Assembly: GCA_902826255.1 (NCBI GenBank)
Contig: CADEEC010000012.1
Span: forward strand, 1 to 36,597
Direction of reading: 5' to 3'
From: an uncultured Hyphomicrobiales bacterium
GTDB lineage: Bacteria; Pseudomonadota; Alphaproteobacteria; Rhizobiales; Hyphomicrobiaceae
Length of the DNA stretch: 36,597 nt
A program made the translations under genes and the position numbers. Positions 16,017 to 18,448 of the stretch are shown here, piece by piece. The notes under the pieces are model-generated. The model saw only the letters and a list, made by a program, of their open reading frames with translations. It had not been told where the DNA came from and did not search any database. Position 1 is the first letter of the stretch. Every line of letters starts with the position of its first letter.

Positions 16017-16073
16017 GTTTGTGGGAATCATCCCACAAACCAGTGCACATGATTTGTGGTTGTCGTCCCAATC
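16017..16073 (+). promoter_or_regulatory. Tandem dyad operators upstream of the HTH-methyltransferase operon
   Basis: Site 1 (16017-16040) is a perfect inverted repeat with 10-bp arms (GTTTGTGGGA) around a 4-nt spacer. Site 2 (16053-16070) repeats the same geometry imperfectly: TTTGTGG, six bases, TCCCA. The two start 35 bp apart. They lie in the 261-bp divergent region between suhB and the 16129 gene, nearer the latter. The symmetric design and the second copy argue for binding by a dimeric regulator rather than a terminator. The regulator is unknown; the HTH-bearing protein encoded just downstream is one candidate. Confidence 0.6.
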
Positions 16074-16128
16074 CGTCCGTCGCTAGGCTCCCCGGCAAAT
16101 CAACCAACGCGGCACCGGGAGAAACGCG

Positions 16129-17532
16129 ATGCAGGAGGCTGTCGGCCTATTGGACAGCATTTCCGAGTTCTGCCGCCGCGCCAACATGGCCGAATCCACC
16201 TTCGGCCGGCGCGCGGTGAATGACGGGAAGTTCGTAGCCCGGCTGCGCGACGGCGCGCGCATCACGCCCGAGACGCTGGAACGGGTCAGCGAGTTTCTCA
16301 TCACGCAGGGGGTGACGGCGCCGTCCTCGCCGCCCGAGCTGATGAGACTGATGCGCGTGACCCCGGCGGCCGGCGCGAGTGCCGTGGCACCGATGCCCGC
16401 CAAAGATGCCCCCTCGCGCAACTTCCGCTTCTTCGACAATCGCCAGAAGTATCTGCTGTTCGTCAACACGTGCAGCGAGAAGGAGACGATCGCGCAGCGC
16501 GTCGGGCTCGAGCTGCAGCACCTGCACCCCTCGCCGCCGGCGCTGCGCGTGTTCGATGCCGGCATGGGCGACGGCACCGTGCTCACACGCGTGATGCGCG
16601 AGATGCACCGGCGTTTCCCGACGCTGCCGTTCTACGTGGTGGGCAAGGAGATCAGCCTTGAGGACACGCGCCTCAGCCTGGAGAAGATGGCGGACCGCTT
16701 CTACGAGCACCCCGCCACCGTGCTGGTCGTCACCAACATGTACTATACCGAGGCGCCGTGGCTGACGCCCAAGGCGCTGTCGGCAGCGACCTCTCTGGTG
16801 TGGCACGAGGTGGCGCTGTCGGGCTCCACGGCCGCCGAGTTCTCCGACCAGATCACGGCGCTCGAACCTCTGCTCGGTAAGGTCTGGCAGGCCAAGCACA
16901 GTGCCAAGACCGGCAATCCGATCTACGAGCGGCCCGTCGCCCTCGTCATCTATCGCGATGATTTCCGCTTCCTGATGCATGACGTCATCCCGCAACAGGG
17001 ACGCGCTCGCGCCGACTACGATCTCGTCATTGCCTCGCAGCCCTACCGTGCGCGGATTCCCGTGGAGCTGAAGGCGTCGCGGGTCATCGCCCCGCTGACG
17101 CGCGGCTTGCGGCCCGGCGGGCGCCTGCTCGGCATCCACTCCTTCGGCCATGATCCGGCGCTGGAGATCGTGCGCAAGGTGTGGCCGGAGGAGAACCCAT
17201 TCACCACGTCACGGCACGACATCCTGCGCACCGTGCGTGCCGAGCTCGGCCGCGAGGCGCGTCACTACAACTTCAACGCCTACGCGGACCAGCGGGCGGT
17301 GTTCCGCTACGACATGCACACGCTGCCGACGGAGATCGCCGATTCCATCGGCACGTCGACGCTGTTTGCTGCGTGGAATGCGGCCGTCTACGTCGCGCAG
17401 ATCGACGACGAGCGACTGGCCGACGTGGTGGGTACGCGCAAATACCTCGATGCGACCCGCGAAGTGCTGCAGGCGCACGGGCAGCTCTGGTTCCTCGACG
17501 AATCCTACGTGATCTCACGCAAGAGAGGGTGA
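16129..17532 (+). CDS. HTH-like domain fused to SAM-methyltransferase-like protein
   Basis: A 467-residue protein. Residues 5-60 look like a small helix-turn-helix domain (FCRRANMAESTFGRRAVNDGK, VARLRDG, TPETLERVSEFL) similar to those of short Rhizobiales regulators. A linker of about 35 residues follows. Residues 100-380 resemble a class I methyltransferase: motif I VFDAGMGDGTVLTRV (141-155), an acidic residue after strand 2 (VVGKEISLED, E174), and LRPGGRLLGIHSFGHD (327-342). A final domain (about 380-467) is unassigned. I do not recognise a specific subfamily or substrate. It is followed after 4 nt by an MTHFR-like gene, suggesting a role in one-carbon or methyl-group metabolism. The operator-like dyads upstream fit autoregulation. 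Confidence 0.68.
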   Translation: MQEAVGLLDSISEFCRRANMAESTFGRRAVNDGKFVARLRDGARITPETLERVSEFLITQGVTAPSSPPELMRLMRVTPAAGASAVAPMPAKDAPSRNFRFFDNRQKYLLFVNTCSEKETIAQRVGLELQHLHPSPPALRVFDAGMGDGTVLTRVMREMHRRFPTLPFYVVGKEISLEDTRLSLEKMADRFYEHPATVLVVTNMYYTEAPWLTPKALSAATSLVWHEVALSGSTAAEFSDQITALEPLLGKVWQAKHSAKTGNPIYERPVALVIYRDDFRFLMHDVIPQQGRARADYDLVIASQPYRARIPVELKASRVIAPLTRGLRPGGRLLGIHSFGHDPALEIVRKVWPEENPFTTSRHDILRTVRAELGREARHYNFNAYADQRAVFRYDMHTLPTEIADSIGTSTLFAAWNAAVYVAQIDDERLADVVGTRKYLDATREVLQAHGQLWFLDESYVISRKRG

Positions 17533-17536
17533 CGCC

Positions 17537-18448
17537 ATGCCGACAGCCTCCGCAACGATACCCGACACCGCATCTGGCGCCGTAGCGCCCGAGATCGCCG
17601 CGGCCGCTTCCGAGCTGGTGGCGTGCGGCTCCCTGGAGATGGGTGCGGATGCGCCTGGCGATGCCGCGCGCATCGCCGAGCTGCTGCCGGCCGGCACGCC
17701 GGTCTACGTGAACCATCTGCCGAAGCATGACATCTCCTACACGCTGAGAGCGCTCATCGCGCTGCGCGAAGCTAACCTGGAGCCGGTGCCGCATGTCGCC
17801 GTGCGCAGGGTCGCCTCGCGCGAGGAGGTCAAGGGCTTCCTCGAGAAGGCCGCGCGCGTTGCCGGCGTGTCGAAGATCCTGCTGCTGGGCGGCGACATCG
17901 CGGCTCCGGCAGGGCCCTACCAGCAGGCGGCGGACCTGCTGCAGGAGGATTTCATCGGTGAATGCGGACTGAGCCAGGTCGGGCTGGCGGGTTATCCGGA
18001 GGGCCATCCTCGCATTGCCACAGATGCGCTGAACGCGGCGCTGGAACAGAAGCTGTCACTGGCGCGCGAGCGCGGTCTGTCGCCCCATGTCGTGACGCAG
18101 TTCTCGTTCGCGCCCAACCGCATCGTCGAGTTCTGCGCCGACCTTGCGCGCCGCGCCCCGGGCGTGCCGGTCTATGTGGGGCTTGCCGGCCCGACGAGCC
18201 CGGTCTCGCTGTTGCGCTATGCGCAGCGGTGCGGGGTCAGCGCGTCCCTGCGGGCGCTGCAGGCCGAGGGCATGCGCGCCGTGCGGCTCATCACGCACGT
18301 TGATCCGACAGACCAGCTTCTCATGCTTGCGCGCCACGCGCGTACGGGCAGCGCGAGCAACGTCGTCGGCGTGCATTTGTTCTCGTTCGGCGGGGTGGCG
18401 CGCACCGTGGCGTGGATGAACGAGCGCATCACCATTCGCACCGCCTAG
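17537..18448 (+). CDS. Methylenetetrahydrofolate reductase (MetF) superfamily protein
   Basis: A 303-residue protein of the FAD-dependent MTHFR family, close in length to bacterial MetF. Recognisable elements are SLEMG with E34 at the position of the MetF catalytic Glu, VPHVAVR, LLLGGD (D120), VGLAGYPEGHPRI, HVVTQFSFAPNRIVEFC and VYVGLAGPTSPVSLLRYA. The usual FFPP after the Glu is absent, and the C-terminal strand reads LFSFGG instead of the common FYTLN, so it is a divergent member. It may reduce methylene-THF or oxidise methyl-THF. AGAGGG spans the preceding stop, so it is co-translated with the methyltransferase-like gene. Confidence 0.85.
   Translation: MPTASATIPDTASGAVAPEIAAAASELVACGSLEMGADAPGDAARIAELLPAGTPVYVNHLPKHDISYTLRALIALREANLEPVPHVAVRRVASREEVKGFLEKAARVAGVSKILLLGGDIAAPAGPYQQAADLLQEDFIGECGLSQVGLAGYPEGHPRIATDALNAALEQKLSLARERGLSPHVVTQFSFAPNRIVEFCADLARRAPGVPVYVGLAGPTSPVSLLRYAQRCGVSASLRALQAEGMRAVRLITHVDPTDQLLMLARHARTGSASNVVGVHLFSFGGVARTVAWMNERITIRTA

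Follow-up and report, generated by a model that had tools for sequence, protein, structure and literature searches.

The HTH-methyltransferase gene and its protein

The window analyzed here, the whole stretch of 36,597 nucleotides, carries on its forward strand two open reading frames separated by 4 nt, as a preliminary description of the sequence had it. The first, at positions 16129-17532, encodes a 467-residue fusion of a helix-turn-helix (HTH) domain to a methyltransferase (HTH-MT). The second, at 17537-18448, encodes a 303-residue divergent methylenetetrahydrofolate reductase (MTHFR).

The joining of an HTH-like domain to a SAM-methyltransferase-like fold, proposed from the sequence, is borne out by AF2 modeling and Foldseek. 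The AF2 model (pLDDT 82.5) is composed of an N-terminal HTH, a disordered linker at residues 72-110, and a class I methyltransferase (MTase) core that continues to the C terminus. The C-terminal domain previously left unassigned is the remainder of the MTase fold and not a separate domain. The HTH occupies residues 7-59 (16147-16305, plus strand) and has helices at 7-17, 22-30, 35-40 and 47-59. A model of these four helices (pLDDT 77) gave leading Foldseek matches that are mostly of the Cro/C1 type, but at E-values of 0.4 or worse; the only Pfam match was a weak one, to HTH_26 at 0.012 in 2 of 28 sequences.

The MTase core spans approximately residues 98-467 (16420-17529, plus strand). Its best Foldseek match is the histamine N-methyltransferase 1jqd (E 4e-8), and its best fold matches are small-molecule methyltransferases, namely those for histamine, fatty acids and xanthosine. 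The core has the Rossmann-type fold, the motif I and the acidic residue after strand 2 of class I SAM-dependent enzymes. The SAM-binding motif I, VFDAGMGDGT, lies at residues 141-150 (16549-16578, plus strand), with FDAGMGDG at 142-149, close to the 141-149 given earlier. Residues D143, G145, G147, D148 and E174 are conserved in homologues with and without the HTH, and approximately 100 core residues, the SAM motif included, are invariant in both.

No Pfam, NCBIfam or PDB sequence match was found for the 467-residue protein, where Pfam and PDB were searched with the protein alone and with 35 homologues and NCBIfam with the protein. The PDB held no credible sequence relative of either the MTase or the HTH. 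The fusion is thus outside any protein family catalogued in these three collections, and the well-characterized family whose discovery would have undone the preliminary description did not appear.

The divergent MTHFR

The 303-residue protein (17537-18448, plus strand) is a member of the MetF superfamily, in agreement with its first description. Pfam MTHFR is matched at 2e-7, and PDB entry 7xg9, which we take to be the MTHFR of Sphingobium lignivorans SYK-6, is matched at E 1.7e-39 over residues 21-294. Scoring 139 bits to 7xg9 versus 32 to the Thermus MTHFR, the protein lies far from canonical MetF. Among its relatives, the catalytic residues noted before hold, with E34 invariant and D120 nearly so, and Q188 is invariant as well; these residues and the scores place the protein in the 7xg9/S6MTHFR-type clade. 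The canonical FYTLN is absent, as had been noticed; HLFSFGG stands in its place, and 7xg9 likewise has HFYPFGG. S6MTHFR of S. lignivorans SYK-6 oxidizes methyl-THF and has LigM as its partner (PMC12585457). LigM was not found in the source genome, which is 87% complete.

Conservation and gene order

Relatives of the 467-residue protein are encoded in 420 genome stretches. Across the genomes the two genes travel together widely, where a failure to co-occur would have counted against the pairing. In a survey of 101 loci, which are related, so that the counts are not independent, and in which one species is counted twice, the gene directly downstream of the HTH-MT gene is that of the MTHFR in 77 and metK (mostly with ahcY) in 11; in 3 the HTH-MT gene is neighbored by a MetE-like gene. 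A methyl-cycle neighbor is present in about 90 of the 94 HTH-bearing loci with enough sequence. Of the ten loci without such a neighbor, two are cut off by the end of a contig and four have no HTH. In genome G581 an HTH-less copy comes first in the order MT-metK-ahcY-MTHFR-purU (L219, 2763-8629, minus strand), and all partners except the divergent MTHFR score above the NCBIfam cut-off. What the neighbors share is a place in the activated methyl cycle and in folate one-carbon metabolism, and the fusion stands first in operons of this kind in many other proteobacteria. This is the linkage to SAM-cycle genes that is typical of SahR and SamR, with an MTHFR of the divergent type rather than a canonical metF.

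Pseudolabrys-like genomes add pcaHG, LigM (above the NCBIfam cut-off) and tandem MetE-like genes near the pair. At seven loci, MetE-like (Meth_synt_2) genes, as many as four in tandem, lie 3' of the pair, adjoining pcaHG, the pair and sometimes LigM; it is possible that they are unrecognized demethylases. Aromatic O-demethylation was considered as the general role of the pair and set aside, because LigM and pcaHG are confined to the Pseudolabrys-like subgroup and LigM was not found in the source genome. At another locus (L156, 9605-10138, plus strand), the HTH-MT and MTHFR genes are separated by a 178-residue open reading frame that resembles MetK in its C-terminal third. By eye, four HTH-less homologues adjoin a gene for a 2OG-Fe(II) oxygenase-like protein or a HisC-like aminotransferase, a hint of an enzymatic role.

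The HTH-MT of the source genome groups among betaproteobacterial sequences at 70-80% identity, which suggests horizontal transfer between classes. Plasmid copies were sought, and there were none. Copies without the HTH turn up in several parts of the tree, so that the HTH is repeatedly absent; the number of losses is a rough one, since five Bradyrhizobium rows were shortened in the first tree.

A candidate operator at the HTH-MT promoter

Upstream of the fusion gene lies a candidate operator of two boxes. Box 1 (16017-16040, core 16021-16036), with the full sequence GTTTGTGGGAatcaTCCCACAAAC, is the perfect palindrome GTTTGTGGGA-atca-TCCCACAAAC, a 10-bp inverted repeat whose 3' end is 88 bp upstream of the ATG. 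Box 2, GTGGTTGTCGTCCCAA, is found at 16056-16071, 35 bp downstream of box 1; across homologues the second box reads GTGGTTGNNNTCCCAC. The spacing of 35 bp is kept in 33 of 40 two-box loci, and the exceptions of 24, 34, 36, 44 and 45 bp, each from a few related genomes, imply that the larger changes amount to about one helical turn. A putative promoter, called by eye, is located at 16060-16088 (plus strand), with a -35 of TTGTCG inside box 2 and, after 17 bp, a -10 of CTAGGC. In the alignment, box 2 overlaps the TTG of the possible -35, and a CTA-type -10 follows 17 bp on. A scan for the sigma-70 consensus did not pick it up.

The operator follows the HTH. Within 300 bp upstream, GTGGG-N6-CCCAC with at most one mismatch occurs at 58 of 96 HTH-bearing loci versus 1.8 in Markov shuffles, and with at most two mismatches at none of five HTH-less loci. 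The looser dyad TGGG-N4-8-CCCA is present upstream of 71 of 95 HTH-bearing loci (4.1 expected), with a spacer of 6 at 67 of 82 sites, and upstream of 0 of 5 HTH-less homologues. The remaining 24 of the 95 have no clean dyad; Bradyrhizobium-like genomes show a rearranged operator, and the half-sites TGGG(A/C) and (G/T)CCCA are still enriched in the more distant HTH-bearing clades. Overall, half-sites occur upstream at 18.4 per kb versus 3.3 per kb in control windows taken from these loci, with z-scores of 12.5, 22.5 and 4.2 in three groups of HTH-bearing loci and -1.4 without the HTH. In G581, the HTH-bearing paralogue (L218) has no half-sites and its HTH-less sister (L219) has them upstream, a single case that would fit control in trans.

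In the source genome's family, the exact box is found in 6 of 11 genomes with HTH-MT, once each and at the HTH-MT promoter, and in 11 of 92 genomes without the fusion, close to the background that the reversed pattern gives. In one genome of the same genus that lacks the fusion (G001), the match lies inside a coding region. Box 1 is the sole exact site in the source genome, and one-mismatch matches equal the reversed control; a genome-wide regulon was therefore rejected. A known riboswitch or RNA element was likewise set aside: no gathering-level Rfam match was found in eight related loci and nothing credible near the source pair.

The same HTH in CoaBC and its homologues in phages

All 7 genomes of the source genus encode a CoaBC with the same N-terminal HTH (L099, 155-1717, minus strand, among them), a fusion apparently found nowhere else in the source genome's family. 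Each of the seven promoters has TGGG-N6-CCCA at about -20. With this candidate operator, HTH-CoaBC would be a second autoregulated enzyme fusion.

The HTH is also homologous to phage family PHROG 7669 (E 2.9e-5). Its closer stand-alone homologues are phage-type, Cro-like proteins, some of them in prophages; their genes occupy the Cro position and point away from those of CI/S24 repressors, with TGGG-N6-CCCA in between. Phage MinM1 has a like layout, with sites of the form GGGA-N4-TCCC. PHROG 7669 members adjoin CI/S24 repressors in the Cro position at five loci and in MinM1, where the gene (L250, 2501-2671) has no annotation on its own strand. The dyad was missing from more distant stand-alone homologues, which a drift in specificity would lead one to expect. 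A palindromic candidate operator of its own and phage homologues divergent from a CI repressor are both features of the Cro/C1 type. Because the dyad tracks the HTH and not the MTase core, and because the CoaBC fusions and the phage Cro-like proteins share it, the HTH very probably reads the operator at its own promoter.

Proposed role and competing explanations

We think it probable that the 467-residue protein is an autoregulator of activated-methyl-cycle and folate operons, and that its MTase domain most likely acts by binding SAM or SAH, thereby tuning DNA binding. The N-terminal phage Cro-type HTH would bind TGGG(A/C)-N4-(G/T)CCCA operators in its own promoter, made up of the palindrome and a second box over the -35, and binding there would control the operon that the fusion heads. 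The target operon would hold the 7xg9/S6MTHFR-type MTHFR in the source genome and metK-ahcY or MetE-like genes elsewhere. The gene pair, the gene order, the fold, the operator and the operator's dependence on the HTH were all computed; from them we infer DNA binding, repression rather than activation, and SAM or SAH as the effector. An autoregulator with its MTase domain as the sensor would be the most economical account. A "self-regulated methyl-transfer/folate module" had been proposed for the pair. Self-regulation is strongly supported by the operator, and the link to methyl and folate metabolism by gene order (MTHFR, metK, ahcY, MetE-like genes and, once, purU); methyl transfer between the two proteins, or by them, did not gain support. 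As in the preliminary description, no named pathway for this exact pair was found in the literature searched.

The most likely role is that of a regulator or sensor, with or without retained methyltransferase activity. The approximately 100 invariant core residues, together with the scatter of HTH-less copies on the tree, point to a core that probably has a function of its own beyond that of an effector domain; instead of regulating only, the protein may act as a trigger enzyme. An alternative that we regard as unlikely yet worth weighing is a working small-molecule MTase of the methyl cycle whose passive Cro-type autorepressor domain keeps its own level constant, with no sensing of SAM or SAH through DNA binding. 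The HTH-CoaBC proteins, in which the same HTH sits on an intact enzyme with the same operator in every genome of the source genus, indicate that the domain can act as the built-in autorepressor of an enzyme, and the core is intact in HTH-less homologues, some of them beside the oxygenase-like or aminotransferase-like genes. Against this, the head position in metK-ahcY, MTHFR and MetE-like operons better fits a regulator of the cycle than a member enzyme, and no substrate is suggested.

HTH domains joined to autoregulated methyltransferase activity are known from HTH-bearing DNA methyltransferases and from restriction-modification controllers, and one of the proteins that the HTH model resembles is the controller C.Esp1396I. 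It is nevertheless very improbable that the fusion is an orphan methyltransferase of DNA or RNA that regulates itself in the M.SsoII or controller manner: the best fold matches of the core are the small-molecule enzymes, no target-recognition domain is seen, and no restriction gene is among the conserved neighbors. Slighter still is the chance that the core moves the SAM methyl group to tetrahydrofolate to feed an oxidative MTHFR, with methionine-level methyl groups draining through MetE-like proteins, MetK, the MT, MTHFR and PurU to formate. We know of no enzyme that makes this transfer, the fold offers no hint that folate is bound, and the ordinary methyl cycle accounts for the same genes. 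What speaks for such a drain is the MT-metK-ahcY-MTHFR-purU operon, the presence of LigM and pcaHG close to the pair in genomes of the Pseudolabrys-like kind, and an MTHFR of a type reported to oxidize methyl-THF (PMC12585457).

Taking the autoregulator as the preferred reading, a broader proposal can be put forward tentatively. A phage Cro-type HTH may have been captured independently by an MTase family and by CoaBC with its operator specificity kept; with the MTase it would form an uncatalogued class of SAM/SAH-responsive trigger enzymes in both alpha- and betaproteobacteria. These would control methyl-cycle and folate operons, and would do so independently of SahR, SamR and the SAM/SAH riboswitches. 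The SAM cycle feeds every methylation in the cell, which makes its control a central matter. If the proposal is true, this would be a further HTH-plus-methyltransferase regulator whose parts are unrelated to those of the known one, and the design would have arisen more than once. The fusion is present in Bradyrhizobium-like and many soil genomes, the source being a soil bacterium, and it comes with a directly testable operator, target operon and ligand hypothesis. It also gives PHROG 7669, a phage Cro family to which no function has been assigned, a DNA motif and a tie to domestication in enzymes of metabolism.

Comparison with known systems

The known SAM-cycle regulators of Proteobacteria are MetJ, MetR, SahR, SamR and the SAM/SAH riboswitches (PMC4239095). 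SahR is an SAH-responsive ArsR-family regulator with the core targets ahcY, metH, metF and metK (PMC4239095). Like SahR, the fusion pairs an HTH with a methyltransferase-like domain, has a palindromic candidate operator at its own promoter, and heads or adjoins metF-type, metK, ahcY and methionine synthase genes; its class I MTase domain would bind SAM or SAH and tune DNA binding in the manner of SahR's methylase-like domain. The parts differ. SahR has an ArsR winged HTH (HTH_5) and a Methyltransf_11 domain, whereas the fusion has a Cro/C1-type HTH and an MTase outside Pfam. Neither an ArsR-type HTH_5 or HTH_20 nor a Methyltransf_11-type effector domain gave a Pfam match in the 467-residue protein, while the source genome's own SahR-like protein matches HTH_5 at 2e-16. 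With hhalign, the two MTase types shared only 20 aligned columns, a short motif, at a probability of 8%. Membership in SahR was rejected on both domains, and by sequence the two DNA-binding domains are unrelated. The SahR-like regulator lies in one operon with canonical metF and metH on another contig of the source genome (L002, 251-3263), so both designs coexist there.

PutA, BirA and M.SsoII are trigger enzymes or HTH-bearing methyltransferases. As in the fusion, a single autoregulated protein unites a domain that resembles an enzyme with one that binds DNA; the domains themselves and the metabolic role are different. The phage Cro-type repressors of PHROG 7669 have a homologous HTH and the TGGG/CCCA operator in common with the fusion, but in the source genome this HTH is fused to a chromosomal metabolic protein. 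In 7xg9, taken here to be S6MTHFR of SYK-6, the second protein has its best solved relative, with the catalytic Glu, Asp and Gln retained, and Pseudolabrys-like relatives of the pair have LigM close by. The source-genome MTHFR is instead paired with an HTH-MTase and no LigM was found; coupling to LigM is a trait of the SYK-6 pathway and not of the 7xg9/S6MTHFR enzyme family.
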